A stretch of DNA of 64,000 bases from Bolinopsis microptera (Eukaryota > Ctenophora > Tentaculata > Lobata > Bolinopsidae). Location of the stretch: positions 2,528,501 to 2,592,500 of the forward strand of contig NC_087073.1 in assembly GCF_026151205.1 (NCBI RefSeq), read 5' to 3'. Positions 839-61,794 of this stretch are shown in pieces. The stretch's first letter is position 1. Each line of letters begins with the position of its first letter. The notes under the pieces are model-generated. The model was not told the origin of the DNA. It ran no database searches and worked only from the letters and a program-made list of their open reading frames with translations. The translations under genes and the position numbers were made by a program.

Positions 839-3800
839 CTATCTGTAAATGTCCTGAAGTTTTGCCAGCTGGGCGAGATGAGTTTCCTTCAACTGTTCCT
901 CTGATATATGCAGGCTCAGGAGCTGAAAGAAAATGACTTTAGTCAAACTTTTTGAAAACTTCTTTAAATCTTTGACAAAGGGAAGGTTATGTTGTCGGTT
1001 TAAACAAGATGTAAATTGTAAAAATCTGCTAATATTTTTGCCGTAATTAAAAAAAAGAAACGTTCGTTTTATGATATTTGGTTTGCACATTCAGCACATT
1101 TTTATAAGATTATACCATATCCTCCCCTGTGACAATGACTATCTTAGTTACTAGTATAAAGTCGACAGTTCTTGTTGTATACTGTGCTAACTTGCGAAAG
1201 AGGAAAATTGCGGCGGAATGTACAGTAAAGTAACGTGTGTAATGTCCATGATACGAATTTGAAGGTGTGTAATACTGGGCACATACCAACATACCAACAT
1301 ACCAACATACCAACATACCAACTGGACAGCTTGTTTGCCAGGTGTTGGTCAAATTAAGAGTTGAATTTAAACTTGAAATGATCATAACTTTGGTTGTGAT
1401 AAGAAATAATAAGAAATATTCCAGGACAAAATTTAACTGTTGTAAAAAATATGTTGCTACCAATACACTGCCCTACCACCCTTCCATGTGTCAACGGGCA
1501 ATCTAATATATTAGATACATACATAATACATAATGTAATACCTACATAATAGTAATACCTATAAATTAATTAATTAACTACATTAATTAATTACCTCATT
1601 GACGAAGAAATCCTCTTCCAGTAACTGATCAGGTAGCCGATACTTCAAGTATTTAAGAGCTTTGTCGAAACTGCAGAATTTAAATGGAATTAAAATGTAA
1701 TACCAATTCCATCAATTCCATCATTAATTAAATCTTACATAACAGAATTTTAAACTGCGCCAGTTTGTCCTTGACGTGACTGATCTTGATACCAACAGGT
1801 CGCTTGGAACACGACCAACTAACAATCCCTCCGCAAGCAATTACCTGTCACAGACATCCCGTACTTTCTTGTCGCTAAATGCCAGCATAAGTAAAGTCAC
1901 ACCCGTCTTTATTAAAACTTTAACACCTGAAAAATAACTGTTCACAACCACATTACATTGCCAAAATTACATTGGACAAAAGTTAATTATATTTGTTATG
2001 AACCGCGACTGTGATTTTGCAACACTGACCAATAATTGATAAATTGATCTCTTTTTTACAATTCGCAAAGCAATCCGCGACACGTGCACTGATCGGTTTT
2101 TTTTCGAACATGGGTGGATCGGAGAGGCTCTAGCTGGCAATTTGGCTTGAAGTTGAGTGCTACTATTATCCCAATGGACCTACAAATTTGAGATGGAATT
2201 TCATCTAGTTGTTCGGTTAACAACAACTTAAGACAAAATGTTTACTTAATATTTGGTGGACTAAATATTGTCTTAGAATGCAGTATAAAGTGTGTGTTTT
2301 CCTTGTTCCGAGGTGTGTTACTTTGATTACATTATAGCGGAAACACCTATAATACACAATAACTACCAGGGAGAGAGGTTCGTGGAGACAGGTGTTGACA
2401 CATAGCGGATGAGACAATTATACCCCAATATCTCCACAATCCACATCACGCCCGTATTCAGCCAAACATTCAGCCGAAACATTTGGGCGATATAATTCTA
2501 GCGTCAAATGCTTTTTAAAAGGTTCGAGTATAAATCCCGTACGTATAATAAATGGAAAATACAATTTAAAATGAATTTAGGATATTTAATGCAAAATATT
2601 GAAAAATTCAGGAGTCTTGGCGTTTTATGTAAAATCACTTTTGTAAATTGGCGTTCGTAGTGTGGTTAACAAACCTTCACATAAGAACATGTCCCATATT
2701 CGTAGAACTGTTTCCCAAGGCAAGGTCCGAGTATACGCACAGAGGAACCACTCCACTGCATAAAATGTAGCCTGTACGTCGTTCCTTCTCTGAATGAAGA
2801 ACTTAAATTAAATAATGAAGTATGAACCATAATCCATTAAGACAGAATTATAAAAATTGTATTTCATTGTAATGATGATGTACAGAGGAGTAATTCTCAC
2901 CAAAAAAGCACTGATTTTAGGATCAATATCGTTAACGAGGGACTCCATTACCCTTCCGTCAAGTTGAACAGCCAACAGCCCGTCGCTGAAGTAACCGGGC
3001 AGATACTTGTTCATTATCGCCACCAGACACCAGAACGCTTGCTCAGCTGGCATCAGCATCAACAATATTCCTGCTATTGAGGTCATCCCCTGAGGTATAG
3101 TTTCATGTGAAATATTAGCAGTAGGAGAATTTAGCAGCTACTTTAAGGAGGGATCCGGAGGAAGAAATGTATGAAATAATTTTATGGAATTTACTGTTAA
3201 AATTGGAAACCTACCTGGCAGTAGCCTACTTTAGGATTGTAAATAGAATAAGCCTTCAGAACCTTCTTCATTTCAGTTTGCCCTAAGCCACCCTCTTCCG
3301 CAAACAGTTCGTGTAATTTGTAGGTTCTAGGAAGATCTTTTTCAATGTATACCATCCACTGACTCTCCTTTCGTAACAAATCCTGAAAAAACAAAAAGTT
3401 TGTTTTGCCTCTCACTAAAACTGACCTCAAACATGCCAGGATTCTCACTAAAACTAACCTCAAACATGCCAGGATTCTTCTGCTGGAGATTTGCAGCACC
3501 ACAAAGTGCCCGCCAGACCGCCGCCCTTAGAGAGTGTGGGATTCCTTTCCTGCACCGCACACGCACCTTGTCGTAGCTGAGAACCATTTTGTTACAATCA
3601 CCTAGCACATCATAGTTAGTACTTATCTATGCAAAAATACAGCTTGATTCGTTTCACGTTGGTTTGTTGTGTATACTGTATAAGTGTCATTTGCTTCGGT
3701 TTTGACTCTGAAAGTTTTCGATTCTTGACTATCTGAGAACAGAATCATGCTAATGGGCAACCAATCTTTAGTTTATTTCTAAAATGAACCAAGGCTTTTT

Positions 3801-9913: not shown

Positions 9914-9915
9914 GT

Positions 9916-10887
9916 ATGACACGAGGAGATACGGCACGAAAACGAAATGTCAAGAAAAGTCCAGAGAAAACTGGTGCTACAGCAGAAACGGATGTAACTG
10001 AAGATGAAGGAGACCGTAGTTGTGAATGCAGAAGGTATATCGCAGAGGAGTTTTCATTAGCTTGTGCAACCTGTGATATGTACTGGCATTATTGCTGTGT
10101 TGGACTGACAGGTCTGACACAAGAAGAAGGCGACCATCTGTCTAACTGGCGTTGTCAGAATTGTTTTATATCACCTTACATAAAAAGCAAAAGGACTCAG
10201 ACCTCGAACCCTGATAATGAAGAAACAAAAATACTAAGGAATGTTATTAGGCAGGAACTTGAGGCTCTTACACCTTGTATCAGAGGGGTTGTTGAAAACG
10301 CAGTGAACGAGAACATTCCAACTAACTTTGAGTCTGAAAAACCTAAAGAAATATCAAAGATAGTGAACCAGGCTTTCCAGTCCTTCGCTGATGTTACTGC
10401 AAATAGTCAGAAGAAAGTTATGGAAGAAATGAGCCTACAGCAAGCTTCACAAAGTGTTGTCAGTAAAGTTCAGACAAAGATGCACACTGATGCATATGAG
10501 CGAAATTTAAGGAAGCTCAATCTGTGTGTTTTGAATGTACCAGAGAGCAAGAAAGCTAACTCCAAGTTACGCCAGGAAGAGGACTCAAAGTTCTGCAAGG
10601 AGACACTAAAGATTGAAAAAAGTGACTTTATCAGTTGCCATCGTGCAGGTAAAGTGGATCCAGGTAAGCCAGACTCCTGTCGGCCATTGATCATCCAGAC
10701 AGCTGACGAGGAGTCAGTTAACTATTATTCCAACCATGGCAAGGGCTGGAAAGAGTCATCATACTGGATAAATCTGGATCTCTGCAGAGCAGACCGAGAG
10801 ATCCGTTTTTTAGCCAGAGAAGAGAGGAAGAAGAGGCAGGAAGAAGCAGAGAAGGAAAAGACAGAGAAAAAGGTGGAGAAGAAGTAA
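9916..10887 (+). CDS. LINE A ORF1p: PHD-finger plus RRM-like RNA-binding protein, 323 aa
   Basis: Likely nucleic-acid-binding chaperone of the LINE ribonucleoprotein. An N-terminal basic stretch is followed by a PHD-type zinc finger: C36, C38, C50, C53, H58, C60/61, C80, C83 (CECRR...CATC...WHYCC...WRCQNC). A helical linker leads to NLRKLNLCVLNVPES (about residue 196), then SDFISCHRAGK and RPLIIQT, a pattern like the L1 ORF1p RRM, and a highly charged coiled-coil tail (RKKRQEEAEKEKTEKK). No esterase domain is present, unlike LINE B ORF1. The ATG is 2 nt after the shared leader. The stop is 30 nt before the ORF2 ATG, so ORF2 is probably reached by reinitiation. The ORF is intact, whereas its ORF2 is frameshifted. 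Confidence 0.8.
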   Translation: MTRGDTARKRNVKKSPEKTGATAETDVTEDEGDRSCECRRYIAEEFSLACATCDMYWHYCCVGLTGLTQEEGDHLSNWRCQNCFISPYIKSKRTQTSNPDNEETKILRNVIRQELEALTPCIRGVVENAVNENIPTNFESEKPKEISKIVNQAFQSFADVTANSQKKVMEEMSLQQASQSVVSKVQTKMHTDAYERNLRKLNLCVLNVPESKKANSKLRQEEDSKFCKETLKIEKSDFISCHRAGKVDPGKPDSCRPLIIQTADEESVNYYSNHGKGWKESSYWINLDLCRADREIRFLAREERKKRQEEAEKEKTEKKVEKK

Positions 10888-10916
10888 ATAGCAGTGATAA
10901 AGAATGTAGTCAGCCC

Positions 10917-13900
10917 ATGAATATTTTTTATACTAATGCTAATGGACTATTTAATAAAATTGATGAACTAAAATGTATTCTATCAGTTTATAAATCCATT
11001 CATGTAATCTGCATTACAGAAACTCATTTTAATAGTGATATTTTAGATGCTGAAATTTTTATTGAAGGTTTTAGTATGTTTAGAAAAGACAGAGATTTTA
11101 AAATCGATAACTCCACTAGCAACATAAGTGGAGGTGGAGGTTCTATTATTTATATTAAAAACAGTTGCAATGCTTCATTAGTGAGCTCATTTTTAAAAGC
11201 ACCAGACTCTTTAGCTATTAATGTCAATACCTCTGGTGGATTGATTAGTATTTGTTGTATTTATAGGTCTACATCTTTGAATTTAAAACAGAATAATATG
11301 TTATTATCTTGCATCAAGAACATATCTAGTGAAAAGAATGTTTTTGAAACCATTATCATAGGAGATTTTAACCTACCTAATGTATCTTGGGAAACTGGTA
11401 GTGTAAATAGTGGTATTTCTAGTAAGAATCAGGTTTTAATGATTCAACAAAAGTATATTGATTTATTTAATGACAGTGGTTTGACGTGGTACTTTACTAA
11501 CGAAACAACCAGAAGACGGCTTGTGAAAGATACTCTCCAGGAGAGTCTTCTTGATCAGGTTTTGTATACAAATGATGCTCTTGTCAACGGTTGTAAGATC
11601 GTTTCTCCGCTTGGCAAAAGTGATCATGTTGGGATACTAGTCGAACTGGTTGTTTCGCCCAATACTAACAAAAGTCCCAAACAAAAGATTTTAAAGCCTA
11701 TTTGGGGTAAGATTTCCTCAGAAGAGTTATATAACTTTAGTATGAATAATATTGACTGGGATTATAGTTGTACAAATAATGTTCAAGATATGTGGGTTGA
11801 ACTACATGGTAAATTGGAGTCTGTTGCTGCAGCTGTCCCAGCTGCTTCGGTTTATCTCGACAACAGACCTGTCAAGTTGCCATGGAGTACAACTTCACTT
11901 AAAAGAATGAGGAAGAACAAGGACAGAGCATGGGCTGAATTCGATATTAATCCTTCGGATATTAACTTTAGCTGTGCAAATAGCAAGCAGCGTATTTTTG
12001 AGGTGGCAGAAATTAAAGCTAAAGTAAATTATGAAAAGAAGATTACATCTAATTTAAAACAGAATTGTAAATCTTTTTACTCGTATTTGCGTAATAAACG
12101 TCAAGTTAAGTCAAGTGTTGTTTCTTTAGATAGAGGAGATGGTACACGCACAGATAGTTCATCTGAGTCAGCTGAGGTACTTGCTAGTGCCTTTAGTTCT
12201 GTGTTTGTGCGTGAACCACCTGGCCCTCTTCCCCAAAATGAGAGTTATAACAAAGAGGTTATTGATGATATGGAAATTAGCAGTTCTGATATCAAGAAGC
12301 AGCTTTTAAAGCTTAATGTTTTTAAAAGTTCTGGTCCGGATGGCGTTCATCCATCATCCAAAGTTGTTGAAATCCTTAGCATACGATGAAAAGTTTGTTG
12401 AAGCTGTAACTAAATTATTTGTTAAGTGTTCAGAAACAGGAGTCCTGCCTGACATTTGGAAGACAGCATCTGTTGTAGCATTGTTCAAAAAGGGTGTTAA
12501 ATCTGATCCCTTAAATTATAGACCTGTCTCATTAACTTGTATTTTGTGCAAAGTGTATGAAAAGTTGGTGAGGGCACATTTATTAACATTTTTAGAAGAA
12601 CGAATTTCAAAGCATCAGCATGGATTTGTGAAGGGTAAATCTTGTCTATCTAATCTCTTAGAGACATTTGATAATATTCTTGATATTTTAGACGAAGGTG
12701 CTCCTGTCGATCTTTTGTATTTTGATTTTAGTAAAGCTTTTGACACAGTCCCCCACTTTAGACTTCTATCTAAATTGGAGGGGTTTGGGGTCAAGGGAAA
12801 AGTTTTAGATGTTATAAAAGACTTTCTGACAGACAGAACCATGAGGGTTTGTGTAGAAGGACAATGGTCTGAGGTGAAACACGTGTTATCTGGTGTTCCC
12901 CAGGGGTCAGTATTGGGTCCTTTGCTATTTATTCTTTATATAAACGATTTACCTGACAATGTTAAAAATAAGATTAAATTATTTGCAGATGATCTCAAGT
13001 TAGTTTGTAATGCAGCTAACCATAGAAGTGTATCTGATGATATTTTAGAACTCGAAATTTGGGAGAGTATTTGGCACTTAAACTTCAATCCTGCCAAGTG
13101 TAAAGTAGTCCATATTAATCTGAATAACAATCCTAACTCGAATTATATTGTAAATGGAGTAGAACTAGAAGTATCTGCACAGGAAAAAGATTTGGGGGTT
13201 ATTACCCATAGCTCCTTGCTTTGGAATGAACAGATAAAAGCATGTATTTCTAAAGCAAATCGTATGATCTGCTGGATTGTAAGGAACTTAGTTATTAGAG
13301 AAAAGGTTGTAATGATAGCTATTTATAAAGCTTTGATAAGACCTCATCTTGAGTATTGTGTCCAATTGTGGAATCCAGTTGCGGCTCATGGAAGTTGGGG
13401 GACTGTTTTGGAGCTGGAGAGCGTCCAGAGGCGGTTTACCCGTCTTATTGATGAGGTGGGTACTCTTCCATACAGCTGCAGACTGGATATCCTCAATTTG
13501 ACAACGCTGGCAGAGCGGCGAATACGTGGGGACCTTATCGAAGCTTTTAAAGTAACTAGTGGTTTGACTGAATATGGATCGGGTTTGTTCAGAATGAGCA
13601 GATCTGGTCTTAATCTAGTTTCAACCAATAGGTGTAATAAGAGTGTAACTAAAGTTAAGAATCTCCAGTCTTCTTTTCTTCCGGAGCAAGTCATTCCTTA
13701 CTGGAACAAACTCCCTTCAGATGTCAAGAACTGCTCGACAGTTTTAAGCTTTAAAGTTAGATTGGAAGGATTTAAGAAAGAAATGATTTCTAAAAACAGT
13801 GTAAATGATTTTTATTTTTGGAATGTTTCGAATGAAGTTTTAGGGAAAATTGAAGGACCCAGTTATTTAAGCAATAAGGAGACACATAATGAATATCTTT

Positions 13901-32144: not shown

Positions 32145-35100
32145 TAAAATATATTATGAAAATGTAACTATAGAATAGGTCGATAATTGTATTTCTTTTG
32201 TTCTAACAAAATGCCATCTGTAAATTTTCCAATAAGTTTGATATCGTTTTGAGATAAAATTGTTAACATGTTGTTGTGTTGACAAAACATCTGAAAGCTC
32301 CTCTCAATTAAGTAATAATATGCAGATAATGATGACGAAAGCTCAATACATTCAGCTAATCGTGTTATGTTTATTGTCTTGAGTAGTTCTAGTTTAATAT
32401 CTCTACAAAGCAAGCCAGTGCGTGACTATAATTACCTATAATTACCTTCTGGAAGCAGCAGCTGATGATGTCACTCATTGGGAATGTGGTGATCTCACTC
32501 TCTCACTCTAGAATGATCTCACTCTTAGCTCTAATATTATTGATATCACATTTCAACCCACTGACCACTGGGACGAGTAAATCTTCATCTCAATCATAAA
32601 TCTATTATTTACTGATGTCACTCCTTTGAAGTGCGATTCTTGAACTAAAATCACCTATATGGTGATATTAGTTCGATAATCTAACGAGCCAGTCTGATAA
32701 ATGTACAAATCGCACACTATTGCAGTGATATTAATGTATTACACAGTACACACGTCACCTGTGTAACATCAGACTGGAAGGTATAGACACTCCAGTGTGT
32801 GATTGTTAAATGTTGAACACACTGCTACTGACACAACAGCTGCAGTTACATGACGAATATAATCTATTGTGACGTATTTGAATTCTGGTTATCTAGACTG
32901 AATTTTGCAAACCGGCGGCCAAGATAATAACCATATCATATCACCTACTTCCAGCCTGGTTCAGCCATCAGGTATTACAGTGAATAATTAGATTTCAATT
33001 TTCACCTGGCCTGTTTCTTACTATCTTTCTATCTGGCAGTTTTTATTAGCTTCTAGAAGGAATATTAAACTTCACACACCCTGAAGCAGTCTGGCTAAGT
33101 AACCCGTGAAGTGGTCACGTGACCAGCGAAATAGAAATCAGAAAGATATGAGTTCTTAGTAGATAACATGCAACTCTCCCCACAACTGATACACACGTTC
33201 AAGCTATAAACAATAGAGTTAACTCGAAACTCTCAAGCTTTGTCGTCTATTTTCTGCTTTAACAGTAACGTAATGTCGCCTAGTAAGCACTAAGCATGAC
33301 GACAGCTTTCTCCGAGCTGATTACTCTAAGTTATTGAAATGATCTCATACTACCTAAATAACTTAACTTCAATATTTTCTGTATTAAATATTACTTTTTA
33401 CAGGAACATACATACCCCACAAGAACGTGGAGGTTGTTGAGACGATCAGAGCGAGCATCATCAGTCCCAACCAGGCTCTCAGACTCAGGGCTCTCAAGGC
33501 ATGCAAGGTATGTTAGTCCCAACCAGGCTCTCAGACTCAGGGCATGTAAGGTATGTTAGTCCCAACCAGGCTCTCAGACTCAGGGCATGTAAGGTATGTT
33601 AGTCCCAACCAGGCTCTCAGACTCAGGGCTCTCAAGGCATGTTAGTCCCAACCAGGCTCTCAGACTCAGGGCTCTCAAGGCATGCAAGGTATGTTAGTCC
33701 CAACCAGGCTCTCAGACTCAGGGCTCTCAAGGCATGCAAGGTATGTTAGTCCCAACCAGGCTCTCAGACTCAGGGGTCTCAAGGCATGCAAGGTATGTTA
33801 GTCCCAACCAGGCTCTCAGACTCAGGGCTCTCAAGGCATGTAAGGTATGTTAGTCCCAACCAGGCTCTCAGACTCAAGGCTCTCAAGGCATGTAAGGTAT
33901 GTTAGTCCCAACCAGGCTCTCAGACTCAGGGCTCTCAAGGCATGTAAGGTATGTTAGTCCCAACCAGGCTCTCAGACTCAGGGCTCTCAAGACATGTAAG
34001 GTATGTTAGTCCCAACCAGCCTCTCAAACTCAAGGCATGTAAGGTATGTTAGTCCCAACCAGGCTCTCAGACTCAGGGCTCTCAAGGCATGTAAGGTATG
34101 TTAGTCCCAACCAGCCTCTCAAACTCAAGGCATGCAAGGTATGTTAGTCCCAACCAGGCTCTCAGACTCAGGGCTCTCAAGGCATGCAAGGTATGTTAGT
34201 CCCAACCAGGCTCTCAGACTCAAGGCTCTCAAGGCATGTAAGGTATGTTAGTCCCAACCAGGCTCTCAGACTCAAGGCTCTCAAGGCATGTAAGGTATGT
34301 TAGTCCCAACCAGGCTCTCAGACTCAGGGCTCTCAAGGCATGTAAGGTATGTTAGTCCCAACAAGGCTCTCAGACTCAAGGCTCTCAAGGCATGCAAGGT
34401 ATGTGAGTGACACATGTCTGTTGAGAGAACCACACTCACGCTCTTGTCGTCACTCCAAAATGCGCCTCTAAGTGCTCAATGGAATGTCAGAGTCAGAGCT
34501 AAATAACAGCATATTAGCGTGTGTGTGACCCTGGGTAGTGTACTAGACACTAGTTCTGCTGAGTGTAACAATACTAATATTAGTATTTACCCAGGACCAG
34601 GGAGGAAAGGATCGAGTGTGTGGGGAGGAGTGGCTGATCAACAAGACTGGAGCGTACCTACCAGGTGCGTACGAGCAAGTTGTCGGGTTTATCTCCGCAT
34701 ACGTTTTGACAGAGAACATTGCGCTGCACCTGGAGGCCCTGCAGAGTTATAAGGATAGGTTTGATGTGGACAGGAAGAGTGGAGAACAGTGGCTTATCAC
34801 CATCAACGTTAGTACAACTTGCAGTTACACTTTTACCTGGTGCTCAAATACTTTTACAATTGGGTGTGCAATGTAATAATTTCACTGCCGTCAAAGTTTT
34901 ACTGTCACTAATAAAATAATTTTTCTAATCAGTTACACTTTTACCTAGTGCTTTATTAATTTTAAATACTTTCACTTTCATGGGTTTGGTAAAAGCAGTG
35001 ATATATGTGTATGGTATCATTCCGAAACAAAAAACCGCTCAAATGTAAAATATATAGTACAAAAGATGTATTATATATGCTCCTTTACAAATGTAACTAT

Positions 35101-38100
35101 CTGCAGGACTCTGAAGCGTTTATCCCGGACGTGTACGAGAATGTGATACAAGTAGTGAACATCTCCACACTGACTAACAGACAATACTGTGTCATACTCG
35201 ACCCAATGGGAGAGGACGGTAAGAACAAGTTGGGACAGAGGAAACTGATAAAAGGAGAGAAGAGTTTCTTCTTGCAGCCAGGAGAGAGACTTGAGGCTGG
35301 ATACAGGACGTTCATATTCTGGGGGAGGATGAGGCTATCATCATCAAGGCAGTGCTCGCTTTCAAGGACAATGTAAGTTATTATTATTGATACTGTCCGC
35401 TAGAAACTCCCACCCCCTCTCCCCCACTCCCTCTATTTAGTTATCATATTTAATATTCTTCATTGCTTGTAAAACAAATTGTCCTTGTAAACAACTAGTA
35501 TAGGACACTATGGCGGAAGTCGCGAAGGCGGAAGACCCAAGGGCGAAGGACCCAAGGGCGAAGGATCCAAGGGCAGAAGTTTCCTAAAACGATCACATGT
35601 CTCACTTTATCATGGAAATATACACCGTCCTAAATATTGGATTAGTAATACTACAAAACCTGCTACATCACAAAATTTACTCCTAATTGTATCAATTATA
35701 TTTCAATCATTTTAGTGATCCTGATTTTGAATTTAGGACATGTGATCGTTTTAGGCCCTCGCGTCTTCCGCCCTCTTGACCGATTCCCAAAGTTATTGAG
35801 CTCTGCTAGTGATACGTCCACATATCATGCAATCTACTGTGTTGCTAATGTCGGGGCGTCATGACAACCAAGTGGTACACAGAGATTGAGATATACTGTG
35901 TAGCTCTCTGCATCTCCACAGATCATATATCTGCACAATAGACAGAGCTTCACAGACCTGTTAAGTGTCCAGCTATGACAAGTACTTTTACACACTGTGT
36001 GGAATTGTAAGGAATGTGACGTATTTCTGAGAGAAAGATTGAGAGAGTGTGCTGACTTGTCATTAGTCCTTTATTTACTATCGGGCAGAGTTACCTGGTT
36101 ACCATAACAACACTATATAGCTCTGCTTCTGAATATTCAATTACTTGTCCTCTTAATTCAGTCTCCTACAGGGTAAATTGTGAGTGTAACTGATTGTAAC
36201 TGAGTGTAACTGATAGAGAGATAACTAACAGCTGTATTAGCTGTTTCAAACCTTATCTTACACACGTAATCTTGGGTGTCCAACGGATTTTAGCAATATT
36301 TACACTTAATGTGGTGTCTGTAGTGTTGTTTTTCCCTGAGTATAAGAACACTCAACAATATTCTACACTATTACTCTGTTTAAATAAACTCAGTCTCAGT
36401 AAATGTGTACTATCATGAAATTTGTGTTATCTGAACAATAGTTATTTTGGTAAAAATATGAAAAAATCACAATGTTTGCTCTAAGAGATATTATAAGGGG
36501 CATCCATACATTAATCAAAAATTAGGTAATATATATACATACATTATTATTTGATTGTTTCACACTTTTCACATTTCATAATTTTATTACTAGGTGGAGG
36601 TGATGTTATTGAGACTTTGGGCGGCCAAAAAACCCCTGTTCTGAAAGTTGTCCTCTGTACTTGTTTCACTGACCCACGCTTTTTAGCATTTATACATTTC
36701 GGCCCATTTTATATGTTTGTTCGAATTGCTGTACATTTGTATACTTGCTATTTTGTAAAAGTTTCAAATCAAATCAGGTATGGGAGTGTTCACATTTTCC
36801 GTCAGCAGATGGGCGGAGGACCTCCGGAGGTGTTATTGTGTACGTTACCATGGTAACTAACTAGTAACCATAGTAACTTTACCAGGGTGTAGACAGAGCT
36901 CCAGGCAACATGTGGATGATACGAGGACCCTGCGAGTTTATTCCCACAGTAGAGATGGAGATAATAGACAGGAGGAAAGCAATGCCCCTGGATGAGAACG
37001 AGGGTATATACGTGAGGGACATGAAAACTGGAAAGGTAGGTTTATCTTCTAATTGTGCACGTGTTATATTGTAACACGTGTTGTGTACGTCACAGGTGTT
37101 AGGAGGAAATTGTACTCGGAGCACACCACTCTAGTAGCACTATCTTTCTCAGTTACTGCTACTGAAGAGCAGATTTCATGGCTTACACAAATAAATATTC
37201 CATTTCCTAATAAAAAGTCCCTCAAGATATGCACGAATCGTTGTACATTGTAAAATATTTAATATTGAAAACAGTAATATAATAGTAAAACAGTAATATA
37301 AAATAATAATACATGTAAACTGAACAGGTGAGAGCAGTAGTTGGACAGACTTATGTGCTGAACCAAGATGAGGAACTGTGGGATAAACCTCTACCAGAAC
37401 AAATAGAGAAACTTCTGAACGCAGAAATTGATCCTCTAGCTGACAGGACCGCTCGGGCACACAACAAGGAAACTAAAGGAAGACTGAAAAGCAAGGTCGT
37501 TAGCTACAGAGTACCGCATAATGCAGCTGCTCAGATCTACGACTACAAGGCTAAGAAGGCCAGGTAAAAACACTGCTTACTATTGTTGTATCTATTTTTG
37601 ATTCTACACAAATATTTGAAAGTTGTACGGTTAGCAGTTGTCTCATTTTGTCAAGCTTATCTAAATTATGTGGTTCACACTCCCAATAAATCTGTATATA
37701 TTATATATATATAATATATATGTGAATTTCGTGTTTTACTGTTTCACTGAATGTCTCAAATATATATATATATATATTATATTAATTCTCTGTCAGGGTT
37801 GTGTTTGTAAATCTGTCTGATATATTAATTCTCTGTCAGGGTTGTGTTTGGACCTGATCTGGTAATGTTGGCTCCAGATGAGCACTTCACCCAACTCTCC
37901 CTATCCGGAGGTAAACCAAAACGTCCCAACTGTATCCGATCTCTGTGTCTCCTGCTGGGACCCGACTTTATGACTGATATCATAACTGTAGAGACTAGTG
38001 ACCACGCCCGACTTGCTCTGCAACTCTCTTACAATTGGCACTTTGAGCTATCTAAGGACAATGCTGAGAACGCTGCAGCGCTCTTCGCTGTACCTGACTT

Positions 38101-44330: not shown

Positions 44331-47300
44331 CTACACTTTTACTTCGTTATTTAGAGAGTCTCTGAAGGCCAATAGAGATTTCTTCACCCTAAGAGCAGTA
44401 AGTCTGGCACCGGGATCATGATACCAGCATTCTTGTACCAACTTCTCCATCAACCTCAAATACTGAAATTTGATTATGTTAATCATCTACTCATCTGGAA
44501 AAATATCATTGATTGAATCACACTGGGCGGCGCTCAGCCTGTCATTCCACCATATCTCCAACCGGTGTTTACAACACTAAGCCTGGGGTCCTCAGGTAAA
44601 TGTAATCTTACTTCAGAGTGATAATGTACAGGACTCTACAGGACACCTCTTAACTGGGTATACACTGATAAAGAGACAACTTGGCACAGATCCAACATTC
44701 AAACTTTGTTAATCAATTTCCGTAATATGTCTACTGACTCTTCCACTCAAGACTCACTATATATTATGTGTCTAGCGGATAAAAAGAAAATAGGTCAGAA
44801 ATTGGTACCATTTACCATCCCCAGTAGATTTTTTAACGAATGATGCTGATTTGAACAGGTTCCCCTAACTTTTTAGACGAAAATTGTCATTATGAGTAGG
44901 AAATTAATAGGAATATGGACGAAAGGAAAATGTAGGAGTAATGAGTAATGGCATGTCTGGCGCATCAAGGAAACTTAGAATTTGCAAGTCTGGCCCATGT
45001 CTGCTGCAAAACAGCGCGCTCAACGCGCGGCAAAAACAGCGCGTATTTTCCTCAATATTATTAGAAATATGTCGTCGCGCGCTACAGTTAATCAATTCTT
45101 TTGTCTCTAAAATAGACGTCTGTTCAAGACGCTCAAAGCGTAAATTAGAAGAGCTTCTTACTGTCTAAAATACGCAGGAACTGGCCGCTGGTTTTACACA
45201 CAGGTCAGGTCACATTGTTACGCTTTTAACCGTGACTAATACCAGGACAAATCACTGTATACAATTAACTGGTCCACTGTTGGCAGGAGTTATAAAATGT
45301 AAGTCTAGACAGTGACGCAACTCCCCCCTTTACCACCACCCTGCCCTAATGGCCTGCCATTTATCACCGTCTGAGACGCGCTATGTACATATCATTACTG
45401 TGGCTTTGTCGGCCAACTCGCCTCGTCTGACCGTACCATGTTTGCTACACGTGTACATGAGTAATGTACAGAGATTTATTGTACAATAGAAATATCAATT
45501 AGCCAACATCAAAGAGGCAATGTAAGGAAGCACTTGAAGAGATATTAGAAATTCAGCCGTAACACGTAAACCTTACAATAGTTAGTAATGTTTATAGTAA
45601 GCAATAGGACCGGGCTCAGTTATTGTCATGCAACTTGTATAAGAGCAGTCTTGGGGGGTATTGGAGTGACCACTACAAGTTTGAGGCAAATTAGTGCCAC
45701 GAATTAGGATGCCACATGGTGTCCCAAGTGAGACCCAACGAAAAGTGAGGCTCAAATAACAGCCGAGTAGACTTGATAATTTATCACATTTTCTGTCTAA
45801 TCTGAGGGATAGCATGCCAGATGAGACAGACATACACTGCAATAGAACACTAAATTCAAAGTTCAGTAAATAGACTTACATCTAATAACTTTAGACTTCT
45901 TACTTAGTGGTGCGGTTTAACTATTTGAATTGTTTGTTAAGCTGGCTACTTAATACAAAAGTCATGTAGCTAGTCAAGAGACATTCATTAAGTTAATCAA
46001 CCATTGGTCATCAGCACAATAACAATTTTAGAGTACCAGCTGAGAAACTAAAGACAGATTATGCTGAGCATTGGGAGGCATTATACTTCATATAAAATTA
46101 TGTGTCTAACTCCTAACATTGCTGAATAATTAGGGTAATTATGAGATGGTTATTGTGGAGTTGGCGGGGGTAATGGTTAAATTGATAACGGTATCACCAA
46201 GACATCATTAACATTTAGACGAGACTTTGCACAAAGATAACAATCAGTCTACTTATGCACATGTAATCACAGATGATTTCGTTTTCATAGACTTAAATAA
46301 AACGTTTTATAGTGCTTCAAAACAATAAGGATAAAATTTCAACAATAAACGTGTTGCGCAACCAAAACTCAGGATCATGTGATGTAAATCGACCAATAAG
46401 AAAGAAGCTCACCTCGTCACTACCCCAATGTCTGGAGATTGCAGGTCTGCACCTGTCAACTACCACCACCTTCCGCATCTCCTCCACAGTGGGGTCAGGA
46501 GCAACGTACTCGTGATAGGGCTGTCTGTATTCCTCTACTATTGGGGCACCTGAAACAGTGGGGTCAGGAGCAACGTACTCGTGATAGGGCCCTCTCTATT
46601 CCTCGACAATCGTGTAAAAATATGGGGGTAACGGTATATCGGGGCCATGAAATCAGGCTTTAACTGTACGTGATAGGGGATATGATATTAGCAACAGGGA
46701 TATGTAATATGTATTGTTAATTTTATAAATTAAAAAACAAATCATGAAATATCTCGTTGTCCAAAATATATATTTTCTGACATAGCGGTGCGATTCAGCG
46801 GTGATAGAACAAAGTGTAAAATATAAGTAACAATCGCGCTTGTTTGATAACGGCTTGTATTTTATTAAAACTCATATTGAATTTCAATGTTCTGATAGAT
46901 TCATTTCCCAAGCTACCAAAACGGGTATAAACGTATAATCGAGTAGAGAAACGCTGAAATCACCCCAACAATTAGAAGACCACGTGACACAAGCTAACCA
47001 GTAACCAATCAGAAGGCAGTATAGCGGCAGGTATGCTCTCAAATAGTGTGTATTTCAAGGTGGTATTTTTATTGAACACTATCAGAGGAATCGGAGGTAG
47101 GAAAATGACGCGTTATGATTGGTTGGTTTGTGCCACGTGGTGCTGATGCTGTGTCCTGATTGGTTGGTTTGTGCCACGTGGTGCTGATGCTGTGTCCTGA
47201 TTGGTTGGTTTGGTTTAGGCGAGCTCTCTTATTGGTGATTTGAGGCAACGTGACTGTCTGGAGTAAGCGACTTTAGCTTATTAACACCATTTACGGGCCC

Positions 47301-53300: not shown

Positions 53301-56300
53301 ACAGCTACAGATACAGTAACATTACAGTGTTAGGTATCTTAAGTTATTTGTGAAGATATTACTGGAGAATCGGAGATGTTTTGAGAGAGGTGGTTTTTGA
53401 AACACAGTAAGTTAAGATCTGTAATGCAAGATGAGTCAGTATGAAAATGAGAAATTCATAATTTAGAGACAATGAAAGATTTTATTTTTTAATAGTTAAT
53501 ACTATGTTTAGTGTTTACAGTATGCACAGTGCACTGAAGGGGTATCCTAGGAAGTTTCTTGAACTTTTAACAGGTATCCCTCCTCATTTAACCCTCAATC
53601 AAGTTTCCTATCATTCGGCTGAGTCGACCGAAGAGATCATATAGATCCAATGGATCCTTAGCTAATTCCTAGAATCTTCTGCGCAGTTCGAAGTTATTAG
53701 GTTAAAGGTTGCTAGGCCACTAAGGTACAGGTTGCTAGGGTACAGGTTGCTAGGCCACTAAGGTACAGGTTGCTAGGCTCTAGGGTACACGTTGCTAGGC
53801 CACTAAGGTACAGGTTGCTAGGGTACAGGTTGCTAGGCCACTAAGGTACAGGTTGCTAGGGTACAGGTTGCTAGGCCACTAAGGTACAGGTTGCTAGGCT
53901 CTAGGGTACACGTTGCTAGGCCACTAAGGTACAGGTTGCTAGGGTACAGGTTGCTAGGCCACTAAGGTACAGGTTGCTAGCATACAGTTTACTGCGGGCC
54001 GGGCCCATATAATTAGCTACTTTTTAACCAGTGATAACGGTTTATATTAGGACACTCGTCGCCATGGTAACGATTAATTGTCCTCCAGTCATTAGCAATA
54101 GTTTCAAGTTGTAATAAAAGGGATATAATATTTCAATCTCACAACATGGTAACATTCCCCTGGTAACAGAACTCAGCAACTATAACCTGAGAGCAAGTTA
54201 CTAGTAGCAGCTCCCTGGCCATACACTAGCTAAATGTAACGAGGGGCCAGTTGTGAGGGTGCAGCACACACACACACTGCATTAGAGGCTGCCTACATAA
54301 AGGCTTAACCACCCCCCCCCCCCCCCCCCCCCCCCTTAAAGATAAACCACTCACTACTCAGCTGTAACAGTGTTATTGTGGCCACGAGGCAATGTTGCGT
54401 AAAAGAGCAGGTAAGTGTTGCCTAATCTGATCCCCTTTTCCAAGCAGGCTGGTTGAACCTTTTGACACGAGCCATTCAGCTCCTTACAAGGAGCTATTCA
54501 ACGCCCCTTCTTACTTAAGACTAGGTAAAGACCATGTTACGACTCCTCTCATCAATGTGACTAATATCGGGGTGACCAGTTTATCCCTTTGTACAGACAA
54601 CATATTTCCAGACTAATTAGGCTGGAGAAAATGCTTTGAAAGCCTCATGAATTAAAAGCAATAATCTAATAGGGCAGTAATGATAACGTGACCGGGTCAA
54701 GTAAGCAGAGATTGGTTGCTTAGATACCACGTGTGAGGACGGTGACCAGGGATAGGTTGCTAGGCTACCACGTGACAGGACGGTGACCAGGGATTGGCGG
54801 GACTGATTACCGGTCTAATCAGAACAGTCCGGGCTAAGTAGGGATCATTACCAGAGAGAGGGAGAGAGAGGGCTGAGTATTATAAAATTTGAGGAAGAAT
54901 TACAGGAGGATTTGAGACATGTCCGATATAAAGCTGAGTTAACAGCTGATGTTTAAAATAGCAGATACTGTACTGTTGAAACATTACAAAGTGTGTGTGA
55001 GTTCACACTAATTATACACGCTTATCAACACTAGCTCCTCAAACTAGCAGTGTTTACCTCCCTTCACAAACTAGCAGTGTTTACCTCCCTTCACAAACTA
55101 GCAGTGTTTACCTCCCTTCACAAACTAGCAGTGTTTACCTCCCTTCACAAACTAGCAGTGTTTACCTCCCTTCACAAACTAGCAGTGTTTACCTCCCTTC
55201 ACAAACTAGCAGTGTTTACCTCGCTTCACAAACTAGCAGTGTTAACCTCCCTTCACAAACTAGCAGGCTTTACCTCCCTTCACAAACTAGCAGTGTTTAC
55301 CTCCCTTCACAAACTAGCAGTGTTTACATCGCTTCACAAACTAGCAGTGTTTACCTCGCTTCACAAACTAGCAGTGTTTACCTCCCTTCACAAACTAGCA
55401 GTGTTTACCTCCCTTCACAAACTAGCAGTGTTTACCTCCCTTCACAAACTAGCAGTGTTTACCTCCCTTCACAAACTAGCAGAGTTTACCTCCCTTCACA
55501 AACTAGCAGAGTTTACCTCCCTTCACAAACTAGCAGAGTTTACCTCCCTTCACAAACTAGCAGTGTTTACCTCCCTTCACAAACTAGCAGTGTTTACCTC
55601 CCTTCACAAACTAGCAGTGTTTACCTCCCTTCACAAACTAGCAGTGTTTACCTCCCTTCACAAACTAGCAGAGTTTACCTCCCTTCACAAACTAGCAGTG
55701 TTTACCTCCCTTCACAAACTAGCAGTGTTTACCTCCCTTCACAAACTAGCAGTGTTTACCTCCCTTCACAAACTAGCAGAGTTTACCTCCCTTCACAAAC
55801 TAGCAGTGTTTACCTCCCTTCACAAACTAGCAGAGTTTACCTCCCTTCACAAACTAGCAGTGTTTACCTCCCTTCACAAACTAGCAGTGTTTACCTCCCT
55901 TCACAAACTAGCAGTGTTTACCTCCCTTCACAAACTAGCAGTGTTTACCTCCCTTCACAAACTAGCAGTGTTTACCTCCCTTCACAAACTAGCAGTGTTT
56001 ACCTCCCTTCACAAACTAGCAGTGTTTACCTCCCTTCACAAACTAGCAGTGCAGCATTACCTCCCTCCGCAGAGTATCTCACATTGGTTACAGCTCACTG
56101 AACTTCTGTGAAACTGGTTTAATCACATGGAACACTGGGCACACTTATCACGGTTAAGAAGTACAGAGATAACAGTGAAACTGGTTTAATCACATGGAAC
56201 ACTGGGCACACTTATCACGGTTAAGAAGTACAGAGATAACAGTACAACTGTACAATAATGCGGTGCATTGTAGCGGTGCGATAGTGCAATACAGCTACAT

Positions 56301-59300
56301 TGCGCCGCTTCATTGCGCCGCATTGAAATAGAACATTGTAGCGGTGCACCGCTTCATAATAATTGCGCCGCATTGCAATGTAGCATTGAAGCGGTGACCC
56401 GTGACACAAACAAACAGAAGTGACCAGACACAAAGCTTCAGATACACAATATGTTACCCAGTTGATAAATGTTCTCTTAATTCTCATGACCTTTGTATCG
56501 TTCAAACTATTGTTATGTTTTCATGAACGCAGACTGCAGACCAAACAAATATCTCATCGGGGATAATATAATGAAACAAATCTGTGGCACCGCTGACAAA
56601 ATCATAATAATTTTACTGACACATCACAATGGTGGTTGTAAAGTGAAAGTGAAAGTGCGCGGTATGTATCTGAAGTACAGTGGTTGTTTCAAACTTAAAT
56701 AAATTGAATGTGTAGAATATTTACCTGAGGTACAGTGATAGTTGTATAGTGAAAGTGAATGTGTATTTACCTGAGGTACAGTGATAGTTGTATAGTGAAA
56801 GTGAATGTGTATTTACCTGAGGTACAGTGATAGTTGTTTATTGAAAGTGAATGTGTATTTACCTGAGGTACAGTGGTAGTTGTTCCCATTAGCGTTCAGA
56901 GTACCGCTGGTCCCCCTAATCTCGCTATGTAAGAAGGTAAGCCCGTTTGCTATGGACAGGGCGAATATGAGCATGTCGTAGTTATTGAGGGTGTTCTGCG
57001 AGAGGAAGTCGTAAAGAGAGCCCAGCTCGTGGTATTCCGTTATCAGCCACAACTCCGTCCAGTTACCTGTGAAAGTGACACTATATAGTCAACTGTATAC
57101 ACTACTGTGTAATACTACGTTCTCTCAAAAATCCTGACTGTAGTACCTACGTGTATAATTAATTTCTCAAACTTAGAGTTAGAGGTCCTCTAAAATGTGA
57201 TGTCTGAAGAGAGCCAGTAGAGTGTTAGAGGTCCTCTAAAATGTGATGTCTGAAGAGAGCCAGTAGAGTGAGCCAGCTATAGAATTACTAATAAGATTAC
57301 TGAGAACTAACTCCATTTCTAAACAATAACTATTGAATGCCATGAGACACAGCCTGTATACGCACTACACCACGTGACCTGATCCCACCCAGTCAGGGAC
57401 CTGCTGCAACTCACCCGACTGGAGGATTTTCAGGGGTTACAGAGTTCCATCTGTAGTACAATGAGTTATTTGTCCTCTATTGACAAATGGGAGGCCGGCA
57501 TTCCTGTTGCTCAGACTGCGCGGTATTTCCTGTCCCCAGTCAATAGTGGTAAAGAACACATAAATCATTATAATATACTCATCCTTCTCTATATATCCCT
57601 CCTCTTGTTATAAGACAGATATAGATCACAGGTCATACACTATTGACTATTCAATATATCCCTCCTCCTCCGGCACAAGGCAATTATAGATTATAGATTA
57701 TACACTACTTATCTCCTGCTACACTACTCAGTTGGAGAGCTAGGAATATTTTATAGGAACTCTAGATAGTGGCCCAACTACACCACAACATCAGTACATC
57801 AGTACCTATTAGTAACAAACAGTAAATACTTGTTGTAACAAATAGTAACCACTTAGTTACCGTGCCTTGTATCTCCTTTGGTCGGTCCCTTTAGCTCTGT
57901 ACTCTAATTACAGTTCACAAATGAGTTTACAGCTCATATCTCCCTCCCTGACTCCCGCTCTGTTTACTTACACTATTAGAGGTTACATCACACTAGCTAT
58001 CTGTTACACTGGATAGTAATAAGTCTGGAGTAATATCACTGTTATGATATCACTCACCTTCTTGTAGAGAGAGGCGTGTACTAATCCGGTATTTAATAAT
58101 ACCCAATAATAAAGGTAACACCCCACCTCTCACCCCCCTGTCCTTGTTATCCCCGGGATCAGGTCCCTGTCTTACCTCTGTCCTTGTTGTCCGCAGCTAT
58201 GAAGCCCAGAATGTTCTCATGTCTCATAAGAGCTGTCCTGTAGATATCCATCTCGCGAGACCAGCTCTTCTCGTCATGGGAAGCGAATATCTTCACTGCA
58301 ATGTTGTCGCCTCTGAAACTACCTCTGTGCACCTGTAAAGTAACCAATCAGAACACTGTAATAGTGACTCGTGACACAAACCAACCAACCACATAATATT
58401 TAGGTGTTGGTTGTGTTACATCTCTTTACAGCAGCCCTGTCTTTGATTGGGTGTTGAGGATTCCACACTACTTAGTTGGTAGATACGCTATATCCAGGAT
58501 TTTTATACTATTTATAGTGAAATATTATTCTTCAAAAGCCCCTACTACTAAGTCAAACTAATCGTATAACGAGTGGGTTCTAACTAACACAGAATAATGA
58601 AATTATCATATCCACTCGCTTAGACGATTGTTAATCGTCCATATCAAGTTATGATTGTCGAAACAATTTATGAAGTTCAACATCAAAAGCAAGAACTGAA
58701 CTTGCTCGCTTACAAACTCATTGTTTTTTTCCCTCTTTTTTTCTTGTTGTACAGTGGAAATTATGTGGAATACCCAACCAACCAATCAAAACACAGTTAA
58801 AATAATGTGAACTAGCTGACATACCTCACCAAACCTTCCTTTCCCTATCGTCTCGATGAGTGTTATCTGTCGGGCAATGGTTCTCTGGTTCATTCTCCGC
58901 TCACTATTATACCCAGAACCTGCAATTAATAGTTGTGTTATTACCGGCTGCAGGGGTACAAATGTGCTAAGTTGAAAGTGTAATGTGACCCCATGATCAG
59001 CACAATTACTAAAGATGGGAACTAACCGCTGCCGAAGCTACTAGATAGGTCAGGCTGAGAAGGGAAAGCCCCCTTTCCCATGGTGACTCCGTTAAAAGGG
59101 TAGTCAGTGTGAGGAGTCAGGGAGTAGTCCTTGTGTGGAGTCCCGTAGTTACATCTCTTGTAGACTAGCACTGAGAAAGAGAAAGTGAATGTTACATCTC
59201 TTGTAGACTAGCACTGAGAAAGAGAAAGTGAATGTTACATCTCTTGTAGACTAGCACTGAGAAAGAGAAAGTGAATGTTACATCTCTTGTAGACTAGCAC

Positions 59301-61794
59301 TGAGAAAGAGAAAGTGAATGTTACATCTCTTGTAAACTAGCACTGAGAAAGAGAAAGTGAATGTTGCATCTCTTGTAGAATTGCACTGAGAAAGAGAAAG
59401 TGAATGTTACATCTCTTGCAGACTAGCACTGAGAAAGAGAAAGTAAATGCTACATATCTTGTAGACTAGCACTGAGAAAGAGAAAGTGAATGTTACATTG
59501 GGCTCAAAGTGAAAGTGATCTTATCTGATACATTTACTACTTTATATCATACGAATCGAATACTCGCTAGGCTTTACACCGACCTATTTTAAATAAATCC
59601 TAGTGATCCATAGCCATAATACCAAAGAGCACTTGTTATTCTTATTTACTAAGAGAAGGTCTGGTTTAGACTTAATGACTAGTGGAAGTGACATTAGCTC
59701 AGACAAGTCCGGCCTATTGAAGAGTTGTCTGGCTACTTGACCGCACCAACCTCTATTATCAGTAATACTGTTCGACAAGCAATAGGGTTAAATGTAATAA
59801 TACTCCCAGACTACTGTTAACTCACCCAGCAAGAGGGAGATAGCGAACAGGACTGTTAGCGAGCCCATAAGAATGTAGATAAGACCTAGTTCATCTTCAG
59901 TGGAGGTCGTTTCGCCCTCCACTGCCACCCCATCGTCATCATAGTCTGTAAAAGATAATTTTAGTAAAAGATTAAACGAATTTTGTCTGCAATTGAGTGA
60001 AGCGAGCTGAGCCTTGACTTGAAGTATGGACTAGGCTCATATTTCACAAATCGTAGTAGTAGGTCCCAGAGAAGTTGCAAAAGTTGTTAAAAAAGCATTT
60101 AACACTGATAATTTACAATGCTAAACGGTAATAAGATGGTAAAGATGAAGAAGACATAATGCAGTAATGTATAATATCAGATGTCCACTGGGAATGAATA
60201 TTACAGACAGCAATCTTCAGTCAATATTGTTAAATGTTGACAAAAATGCTCGTCTTGAGCAATGAGCACCAAAGGTCACCATTTTCTTACAAAGATGGTT
60301 TCTCTATCAGCACTCAGTCAGCCTAATAGTAAGCTATGTTTTGTCTATCAGTCCACTGGTATTCTGTGATATTTCAACTTTTAACTTTGAGTGACAGCTC
60401 CAGTAATTTTGCGGACTATTTTATTTCCACTGTAGTATCAATCCATGAAACTATAACCCAGTGTAGAATACAGGCTACACTTCACATGTGGAGGTATTTA
60501 GACAGCTATTTACATAGTTACACTGGGTTTCCTGGTGCGTACTCTCAAAACCAGACACCTCGATTATCCCTTACATGGGCATCGAGACGAACCTGACAGC
60601 TCAGCCTTACTATTGATAGAAAAATCCTCATTTTACGTCTTCACTGTCTCATATATATTGGTCACGGGCAGTATAATTTAGTTATGTGTGTTATCTACTC
60701 TTTTGGAAATTAAAGGATTCTCTACAAAATACACTATTTTGTAGTGTATACCCTGAGCAAAGTGCAAGTGTTACCGTGGAAACCAGGGTACAGTGTTACC
60801 ATGGAAAATATGGTTTCCATAGTAACACTGTACTGTACTATAGTTTCCATGGTTGCGCCAGTCAGAACAATGTATCTGAACCACATGACACAAACCGAAA
60901 AATTAAAACATAGTTTCGGTGCCGCGTACATAAGCCAACCAATCAGAATACAGTATGATATCATGTGACCAACCTGAAACTGACTCTATGGTAATGTCGT
61001 CAGTAGATTTACTCTGCATCTCCGACAGTATCACATGATTGTCGGGTATCTTTTCAGCACTGTTGCAGAAATTCTCACTACAGCACTGTACTTTGAACGG
61101 TCGTTCTGTGTGCTGCCTGAAATAATAAACTTTTTATATAATGTAATAAGATGTTACAATAAGATGCGCATGCTATGATCATTGACTATTTTAATCCATC
61201 GTTAATTCTTGGCCATTTAGCTTATAGTTTGATTTTGAGCAATATAAGACTTATTGAACCAATAATTTTGGACTTCTATTTCCTCTAGGCTCTAACCTTT
61301 GCAAAATAAATTTCGGGGGCTAATGTAGATATTGAAATACAACTTAAAAGCTTAACATAAGACATGAAATTGATGTTTTTAAGCCCAAACAATCAACAGG
61401 ATGAGTTTGAAAATACGAAGTATAAGTTTGGATGAAAATAAACTCACGTGTTACAAGCTAAGATGGCTTGGTTAGTACAGCTTCTGTATGTGTACTGTTT
61501 GTTGTCTTCATCAAGGCTGAACTTCACAAAGCATCGCGTGTTGTTGTTGGTGATGTCGATTTTACAAGTGCCTTTCTGGCATGTGTCGCACTGGCATGTT
61601 CGGATAGAATCTTTTCTCGTGTTCTCGTCTGCAACCAATTCAAACTTATAGGGTTTATCTGAATCTATATGGCGTATAACAGAATCTATTTTTGAGATGG
61701 ACTCGGCAGTAATGGGTGTGACGTATTTCAAACCTTGGCTAAGAGCAGATATCCAAAGAATGTAAAGCAGGATTATAGTCACTCGGAGCAGCAT
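44331..61794 (-). CDS. Activin/TGF-beta type I receptor Ser/Thr kinase, 11 exons, 587 aa
   Basis: Exons (5' to 3'): 61794-61448, 61116-60974, 59945-59826, 59170-59027, 58919-58825, 58332-58176, 57066-56863, 53259-53100, 50075-49951, 46549-46413, 44462-44331. Signal peptide [17 protein letters not shown]. Cys-rich ectodomain ending CCSENFCN (127-134). One membrane helix (about 183-206). GS box SFGSGSG (about 248-254) followed by QRTIARQI. Kinase: GKGRFGE (277-283), IAVKIF (Lys297), HRDMKSKN (411-418), DLG (431-433), MAPE (459-462). The L45 loop ADNKDRG (330-336) matches ALK4/5/7 (ADNKDNG), predicting SMAD2/3 signalling rather than the BMP class (ADIKGTG). Exon 7 ends with a novel 14-15-residue insert before KPAIAHRD. 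Start chosen because it opens the signal peptide. Minisatellites straddle the exon 4 acceptor and exon 7 donor. Confidence 0.92.
44523..44600. repeat. Copy of the TA-TIR terminal repeat in the last receptor intron
   Basis: CTGGGCGGCGCTCAGCCTGT then CATTCCACC, ending with CCTGGGGTCCTCAGGTAA, a diverged copy of the terminal and subterminal repeat of the 7.9-9.75 kb element. Confidence 0.65.
46486..46612 (-). repeat. 69-bp-period partial duplication of receptor exon 10 across its acceptor
   Basis: 46,486-46,521 (exon) and 46,555-46,590 (intron) are identical over 36 bp. The intronic copy, upstream in gene sense, reads [12 protein letters not shown] but is preceded by EE then a stop. It ends only about 5 nt before the real TTTCAG acceptor at 46,550. 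Confidence 0.9.
47118..47215. repeat. 41-bp tandem duplication of the CCAAT/CACGTG repeat family
   Basis: Two copies of GATTGGTTGGTTTGTGCCAC followed by GTGGTGCTGATGCTGTGTCC, then a third partial. Same family as inverted copies at 49.2-61 kb. Confidence 0.85.
47530..49248 (+). mobile_element. LINE F: 5'-truncated CR1-like LINE in a receptor intron, antisense
   Basis: RT sequence starts around [17 protein letters not shown] (47,550), just after three copies of GAACATGCTCTTCT, and has a frame change near 47,600. It then runs open to 48,872. The 3' UTR ends in an A-run at about 49,236-49,248. It sits between receptor exons 9 and 10 on the opposite strand and is spliced out as intron. Confidence 0.75.
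47615..48872 (+). pseudogene. LINE F reverse transcriptase, N-terminally truncated
   Basis: Reads [37 protein letters not shown] and [13 protein letters not shown] (YADD), then [18 protein letters not shown] and a thumb/connection to the stop after [10 protein letters not shown]. The endonuclease and first RT motifs are missing, so it is a dead copy although the remaining 400 codons are open, suggesting a young insertion. RT sequence is closest to LINE B among the elements here. Confidence 0.8.
49701..49742. repeat. Perfect 42-bp palindrome
   Basis: Centred at 49,721/49,722 on TTTAAA; each arm is 21 bp (arm includes GTAGTGTTGTAATTAGTTT). Located in receptor intron 9, 250 nt from exon 9. Confidence 0.9.
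51118..51380 (+). mobile_element. 3'-UTR relic of the LINE D family
   Basis: Aligns along its length with 27,625-27,945: shared landmarks CACCCGCACA, CAGACCT-TATCTAATGTA, TGTAATGGG-CCAA, GTAGTTCACTAT, GATTCTATTTTAT and TGTACTCTGTAAA. No coding part, so a severely 5'-truncated copy in receptor intron 8. Confidence 0.75.
51462..51572 (-). ncRNA. tRNA-like (SINE head?) sequence
   Basis: The minus strand shows an A-box-like TGGTAAAGTGATAGC and, about 62 nt later, a perfect B-box GGTTCGAACCC. The spacing fits only a class II or degenerate tRNA. I cannot fold a full cloverleaf, so a tRNA-derived SINE is more likely than a tRNA gene. Confidence 0.3.
52386..52493. repeat. 13-bp minisatellite, about 8 copies
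   Basis: Tandem GGTGGGAACTAGA with G/A variants in receptor intron 8. Confidence 0.9.
53013..53083. repeat. Imperfect inverted repeat near receptor exon 8 donor
   Basis: AATAACAACAATC ... TTAATATTACTTCTTT pairs with AAAGAAGTAGTATTAAG ... GATTGTTGTTATT; the left arm has a 7-nt insertion. It lies 17-87 nt downstream (gene sense) of the exon 8 donor, so a pre-mRNA stem-loop is possible. Confidence 0.75.
53697..53985. repeat. GGTTGCTAGG minisatellite with higher-order units
   Basis: Alternating units CTAGGCCACTAAGGTACA and CTAGGGTACA joined by GGTTG, arranged in larger repeats, in receptor intron 7. Confidence 0.88.
54312..54335. repeat. Poly-C run (24 C)
   Basis: Homopolymer in receptor intron 7; probably length-variable. 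Confidence 0.85.
55040..56051. repeat. 27-bp minisatellite, about 37 copies
   Basis: Unit AACTAGCAGTGTTTACCT + CCCTTCACA. Because 27 is 9 codons and no unit has a stop, the plus strand is open for over 350 codons (FTSLHKLAV repeated), but it is intronic and antisense to the receptor. On the gene strand each unit contains GGGAGGTAAAC, a donor-like site. Confidence 0.95.
56108..56242. repeat. 67-bp direct tandem duplication
   Basis: Two adjacent copies beginning GTGAAACTGGTTTAATCACA and ending GTACAGAGATAACA. Confidence 0.9.
56719..56884 (-). repeat. 46-bp minisatellite copied from receptor exon 7 end and donor
   Basis: Four copies, the first (gene sense) being the real exon end. Each contains CACTGTACCTCAG|GTAAATA on the gene strand, i.e. 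21 nt of exon plus 25 nt of intron. A weaker fifth copy is near 56,665. Confidence 0.92.
57174..57265. repeat. 46-bp direct tandem duplication
   Basis: Two copies of TTAGAGGTCCTCTAAAATGT followed by GATGTCTGAAGAGAGCCAGT in receptor intron 6. Confidence 0.9.
59147..59498 (-). repeat. 43-bp minisatellite copied from receptor exon 4 acceptor
   Basis: Eight copies including the authentic one. Gene-strand unit: pyrimidine tract TTCACTTTCTCTTTCTCAG followed by TGCTAGTCTACAAGAGATGT, the first 20 exon bases. The array extends upstream into intron 3, giving eight tandem acceptors. Confidence 0.92.
60770..60860. repeat. Inverted repeat with GTTACCATGGAAA arms
   Basis: AGTGTTACCATGGAAA and TTTCCATAGTAACACT flank a short loop at about 60,800-60,832; outer GTGGAAACCAGGGTACAGT and ACTGTACTGTACTATAGTTTCC add imperfect pairing. 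Fold-back element in receptor intron 2. Confidence 0.7.

Follow-up and report, generated by a model that had tools for sequence, protein, structure and literature searches.

In the ctenophore Bolinopsis microptera, tandem duplications that straddle exon-intron boundaries are a real feature that recurs widely in the genome: 12 of 433 confidently placed junctions in a sample of genes (2.8%, 95% CI 1.4–4.8%) lie within such a duplication. The reading we favour, with a probability of roughly 0.73, is that neutral duplications arise at a high rate, are tolerated beside exons and leave the exon-side splice site in use. Among the explanations offered in the preliminary description of this DNA, tolerance of duplicated splice sites as neutral is supported.

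The six sites that prompted this study lie in a 64,000-nt stretch of the 264.65-Mb genome (C2:2528501–2592500, GC 38.4%), hereafter the window. Across its three genes, encoding MVP, a TGF-beta type I receptor and a TBC/RabGAP protein, 51 splice junctions and one alternative donor were placed, with exons numbered as in the preliminary description. The MVP and receptor models were built from PDB alignments in all three frames, and the TBC model from reading frame, GT/AG and phase. The spliced product of the five TBC exons matched the RabGAP-TBC Pfam family at 6.9e-53; a six-frame genome search with this family listed 27 matches, none of them inside the window. The features are collected in Table 1.

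Table 1. Boundary duplications and associated exons in the window (window positions).
Feature	Position	Strand	Description
TBC exon 3 donor duplication	3410..3478	-	33 bp x 2.1; exon-side copy would give boundary 3458/3459
TBC exon 3, as joined by copy 1	3459..3576	-	In-frame continuation into exon 4
MVP exon 4 donor minisatellite	33463..34408	+	52 bp x about 19; first spacing 43 bp
MVP exon 4	33404..33507	+	Donor copy 1 keeps the MVP frame
MVP exon 9 acceptor duplication	37778..37850	+	43 bp, two copies; boundary 37839/37840
Receptor exon 4 acceptor minisatellite	59148..59498	-	43 bp x 8.2; boundary 59170/59171
Receptor exon 4 (juxtamembrane)	59027..59170	-	Frame fits with the exon-side copy
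Receptor exon 7 donor array	56718..56884	-	46 bp x 3.6; CAG/GTAAAT donors at or just past the exon end
Receptor exon 10 imperfect duplication	46486..46604	-	69-bp period; acceptor 46549/46550 between copies

All six boundaries had been described as duplicated with GT or AG repeated in register. This holds for four of them, is ambiguous at receptor exon 7 and does not hold at receptor exon 10. The MVP exon 4 array contains the end of the exon plus the donor AAG/GTATGT, and read-through to the next donor copy runs into a stop. At MVP exon 9, where the duplication was detected by our own script and is absent from the TRF list, the last (exon-side) acceptor copy fits and the other one shifts the frame. 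The unit at receptor exon 4 comprises a pyrimidine tract, the AG and the first 23 nt of the exon, and use of the next acceptor copy would again shift the frame. At these three sites the conserved frame suits the exon-side copy and not the next one, and the exon-side site is clearly the predicted authentic one. The two TBC exon 3 donors, GAG/GTTAGT (exon-side) and GAG/GTCAGT, both keep the frame open, and the Pfam scores obtained with them (179.9 vs 178.7) differ by only 1.2 bits, so that homology does not decide between them; the exon-side donor would yield an intron of 76 nt, the shortest among 198 introns, and the other donor one of 43 nt.

At receptor exon 7 kinase conservation breaks off at 56904/56905, next to a GT that scores poorly (-0.7; 3 of 216 sampled donors are as low). 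The array donor at 56862/56863 scores 3.3 but would add 14 residues, and the boundary is ambiguous between these two positions. At receptor exon 10, exon sequence has been copied into the upstream intron, and no in-register second copy of the acceptor AG was found in the 69-bp duplication.

Tandem segments with units of 8–130 bp, simple repeats excluded, cover 7.1% of the window and contain 6 of its 51 junctions. Circular shifts of this mask gave a mean of 3.4 (sd 2.4) and reached at least six junctions in 20% of cases. Enrichment at junctions judged from the window alone was thus not significant and was rejected, and other genes were therefore sampled.

The sample consisted of myosins, kinesins and homologues of metH, carB, sucA, gcvP and sdhA, selected by exon density and placed with our own splice-aware protein aligner, with intron-poor or intronless paralogues serving as templates for the myosins and kinesins and E. 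coli proteins for the others. The search of the genome for a purL homologue gave no match, the pgi homologue is a single exon and contributes no junctions, and the acnA homologue was left out as few introns were visible. A junction was counted as straddled if a tandem duplication extended 4 nt or more past it in both directions. A local similarity filter kept 433 of 528 junctions; two of the 95 low-confidence junctions dropped were straddled (the L027 donor and the L047 acceptor). Removed before counting were L022 and L044, near copies of L021 and L043, and the template sources L008, L010 and L011. L044 (C86:2200–7000, on a 30-kb contig) is a second copy of the sucA-like gene L043 on C7, with the first 200 aligned residues identical, and is probably an alternative haplotype of it, which could help in studying array polymorphism.

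Some analyses used other sets. A first count of 307 confident junctions included L022 and L008, and the coverage profile (sample 1) used 302 junctions with L008 and without L022. The tests of array edges, of 90 array events, of the array share of introns and of intron birth were based on 198 introns with both ends confident, including the window and L008 and excluding L022, L044 and sdhA. The event test on the sample only used 179 introns, with sdhA and without the window and L008.

Straddling duplications in the sample affect both intron ends, with 7 of 216 donors and 5 of 217 acceptors; the preference for donors expected under first-come use was not found (7 vs 5, P=0.58). Straddling units are 20–53 bp long. 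The highest copy number was seen at the donor of a kinesin intron (L020), which is followed by 51 further copies of a 32–33-bp unit. Another kinesin (L033) has an acceptor with 28 further copies, a myosin (L009) a donor with 21, all identical, and the metH homologue two acceptors with 18 and 12. One of the 12 straddled sites, in L016, is a weak donor (score -0.3). At each of the 12 sites the junction recurs in another copy, which has an intact GT or AG in 11 of them; the exception is the acceptor of L046, whose other copy lacks the AG. This acceptor (CTCAG/GTAACT, around 4131 of the reverse complement) lies in a 26-bp duplication in which the other copy reads CTCAT, and it is immediately followed by a donor-like GT. 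The window is richer in straddled junctions than the sample (6/51 vs 12/433, P=0.007; P=0.08 with only its four certain sites).

The preliminary description had suspected a biased process that favours splice junctions, and the distribution of arrays along genes does not support this. For the 425 junctions with introns of at least 100 bp, arrays covered 12 junctions (2.8%) compared with 36 positions 40 bp inside the same introns (8.5%), with one pair covered only at the junction and 25 only in the intron (P=8e-7). In sample 1, coverage climbs smoothly from 0.02% in the exon (-60 to -25) via 2.8% at the junction and 7.8% at intron positions 30–60 to 18.1% at 250–500, without a peak at the junction. 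In the 42.3 kb of exon sampled, no tandem segment lay wholly within an exon; of the intron bases sampled, 17.3% fall in arrays (low-confidence exons and introns included in both figures).

A process that places duplications at junctions, for instance through AG/GT microhomology or breaks linked to co-transcriptional splicing, is hence unlikely, though it draws on several observations. At the level of events, 15 of 90 arrays straddle a junction where collapsed introns would lead one to expect 7.2 (P=0.002), a count that includes the six ascertained events of the window. The sample on its own gave 9 of 69 vs 5.4 expected on present-day collapsed introns (P=0.07). This expectation rises if shorter ancestral introns are assumed, to 8.2 (P=0.43) or, with introns of at most 150 bp when the arrays arose, more than doubles to 12.5 (P=0.92 for a count at least as high). 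The density of array edges within 40 bp of junctions likewise exceeds that in most deeper bins, the exception being the donor bin at 160–320 bp, but edges would accumulate beside any barrier that arrays cannot pass. Given the excess in the 90 arrays, the sample count of 9 vs 5.4 and the richer window, a modest boundary excess is therefore possible; a small junction bias of duplications is likewise possible, not shown.

It is very improbable that the arrays mark the birth of introns from a duplicated exonic AGGT segment (the Rogers model), an origin also considered in the preliminary description. Several units do carry AG/GT, and splicing between two copies would in principle yield an intron. 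However, in ungapped comparisons of 30 nt around donor and acceptor, none of the 198 introns reached 18 identities, and the best match (17 of 30) corresponds to the 99.9th percentile of chance pairs, i.e., the similarity expected after recent birth was found in 0 of 198 introns by a test that would miss old, decayed births. Moreover, of the seven kinesin introns with straddling arrays, three have a counterpart of the same position and phase in a paralogue, as do 39 of 97 kinesin introns overall; these three, at least, were probably there before their arrays. The arrays thus reflect the lengthening of introns already present, not their birth, and the suggestion of intron growth by tandem duplication was borne out: array copies account for 16.5% of intron sequence in the 198-intron set. 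The kinesin paralogues L021 and L022 (C13:5067800 and C13:4981000), identical over 315 aligned residues, differ in the length of one intron (1062 vs 122 bp), and the longer version holds a tandem array with 11/88-bp units.

Another copy of the junction accompanies 17 of the 18 straddling events (six in the window, 12 in the sample), and all 190 of these copies are located intronward of the presumed authentic site, which was set by the aligner in the 12 sampled events and by homology at MVP exons 4 and 9 and receptor exon 4. GT or AG is kept in 187 of the 190, mostly with scores similar to that of the presumed authentic site. If the nearest other copy were used instead, the frame would shift in 14 of 17 events and a stop would be added in two of the remaining three, sparing only TBC, where both donors are open; spacings other than multiples of three were not significantly in excess (14/17, P=0.21). 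A simple rule by which the first-transcribed site is used would be right for donors and wrong for acceptors and, as arrays at both ends are about equally common, is unlikely.

That the extra copies are used, the arrays being adjustable switches of splicing or decay kept by selection, is improbable, more so than a biased process. The intact sites in 187 of 190 copies would suit it, as would a naive comparison in eight arrays cut into fixed-length units, in which changes affected 1 of 356 cells at GT/AG and 389 of 6472 elsewhere in the unit. When units of variable length were aligned in nine arrays and the columns permuted, this excess conservation was not significant (P=0.06–0.10), and neither was conservation of the extended splice signal (P=0.17–0.36). 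Selection on the decoy sites was rejected. With copies that are 0–7% divergent and a conservation signal that is lost after better alignment and permutation, the copies look young and neutral; that the nearest copy would disrupt the product in 16 of 17 events also argues against its use. Least probable of all, we consider it hardly credible that the copies are assembly artefacts. The 22 identical copies in the L009 array could be read in this way, and the apparent frameshift in MVP exon 6 (see below) implies that base errors may exist, but units have diverged in eight of the nine arrays examined and straddling arrays occur on seven contigs (C2, C5, C6, C7, C11, C12 and C13).

Neutral duplication with tolerance beside exons, as we favour it, would work as follows. 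Short tandem duplications probably arise often in this genome, and some of them grow into minisatellites. They would land throughout noncoding DNA and be purged from exon interiors. A duplication that straddles a boundary would preserve the complete exon together with an intact exon-side splice site, and for this reason it would survive; its extra copies would turn into the start or the end of the intron, which lengthens accordingly. Most likely, exon definition recognises the site adjoining the complete exon body, and mis-spliced products, mostly frame-shifted, would then be destroyed by decay. The arrays, how often they occur, their gradient, the intact additional sites and the effects on the frame are observed in the DNA; choice of the exon-side site, exon definition and removal of errors by decay are steps that we infer from it.

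The structures in B. microptera are of the same type as the mirages published for amphioxus. There, tandem duplications that resemble minisatellites and copy exon-intron boundaries are described in the globin genes BflGb6 and BflGb9, Adh3, TnC and PGBD5; both boundaries are affected, AG/GT is present in many though not all copies, regular splicing is undisturbed and copy number varies between haplotypes (PMC3087553, PMC3902484). Both systems have repeats that cross boundaries at either end of introns, and many AG/GT-bearing copies. In our data, exon and intron bases were found in each unit at four of the six window sites, duplications at 5′ as well as 3′ boundaries (7/216 donors, 5/217 acceptors), and AG or GT in 187 of 190 copies. 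The differences are the phylum (Ctenophora), the frequency determined over 433 junctions and a site with as many as 51 additional copies. Splicing of the amphioxus globins was verified by RT-PCR, whereas in B. microptera it is predicted from genomic sequence. The ctenophore occurrence and the measured frequency of mirages are new; no earlier report of splice-junction minisatellites in ctenophores was found in the literature searched, which leaves out most subscription papers.

Two further systems can be compared. Intron gain by tandem genomic duplication has been proposed in the Rogers model (cited in PMC3087553) and described for the potato RdRp gene (PMC4974935), and near intron pairs have been considered in the context of intron gain (PMC2891723). 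Local tandem duplication of splice-like motifs is common to these accounts and to B. microptera, where, in contrast, the introns already exist and grow, and the duplicate signature linking donor and acceptor was not found in 198 introns. Human internal tandem repeats include minisatellite expansions at exon-intron boundaries that alter gene structure and intron length; the cases studied are located in recent segmental duplications, and half of them change the coding sequence (PMC2812944). Minisatellites at boundaries and changed intron lengths are shared with B. microptera, in which, unlike in the human cases, the conserved exon is retained.

We regard it as an even bet that in this ctenophore a few per cent of the junctions, i.e., thousands, lie in arrays that hold between 2 and about 50 near-identical copies of the site, at both intron ends and with the exon-side copy still chosen. 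If so, these arrays would constitute a natural experiment in which splice-site strength is constant and position alone varies, making models of exon definition, scanning and first-come use separable. As the competing sites are identical and reside in natural genes, the choice among equal splice sites could be tested with long-read RNA; Iso-Seq and RNA-seq both went into the annotation of B. microptera (PMC10232365). Should the 2.8% hold genome-wide, mirages would be a common outcome of frequent tandem duplication, not an oddity of amphioxus, and a visible path to intron lengthening.

Several further observations were made in the window. MVP exon 6 (35300–35315) has an apparent one-base frameshift relative to the alignment with vertebrate MVP, with the frame change at GGATACAGGAC; this is either an assembly error or a real lesion. 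One receptor intron contains, away from junctions, an array of 37.5 copies of a 27-bp unit (55040–56051), in which two plus-strand frames, antisense to the receptor gene, are open for about 360 codons. An 11-bp array (30517–30690) is wholly intronic and starts about 14 bp past the MVP exon 2 donor. Long open frames are located at 10000–14000, 16100–21700, 22900–25100, 25700–27400 and 47600–48900; judged by eye from their motifs, these five regions resemble reverse transcriptases and endonucleases of retroelements.

Elsewhere in the genome, L052–L057 are glutamate-receptor-like genes. Three glutamate-receptor proteins were searched; one of them matched the iGluR ligand-binding domain of ML032222a, presumably a Mnemiopsis protein, with 181 bits over a 256-residue chain, and ML032222a was absent among the matches listed for the other two. 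The open frames around the glutamate-receptor-like matches span 654–949 codons, and four of these matches are clustered in about 27 kb of C12.
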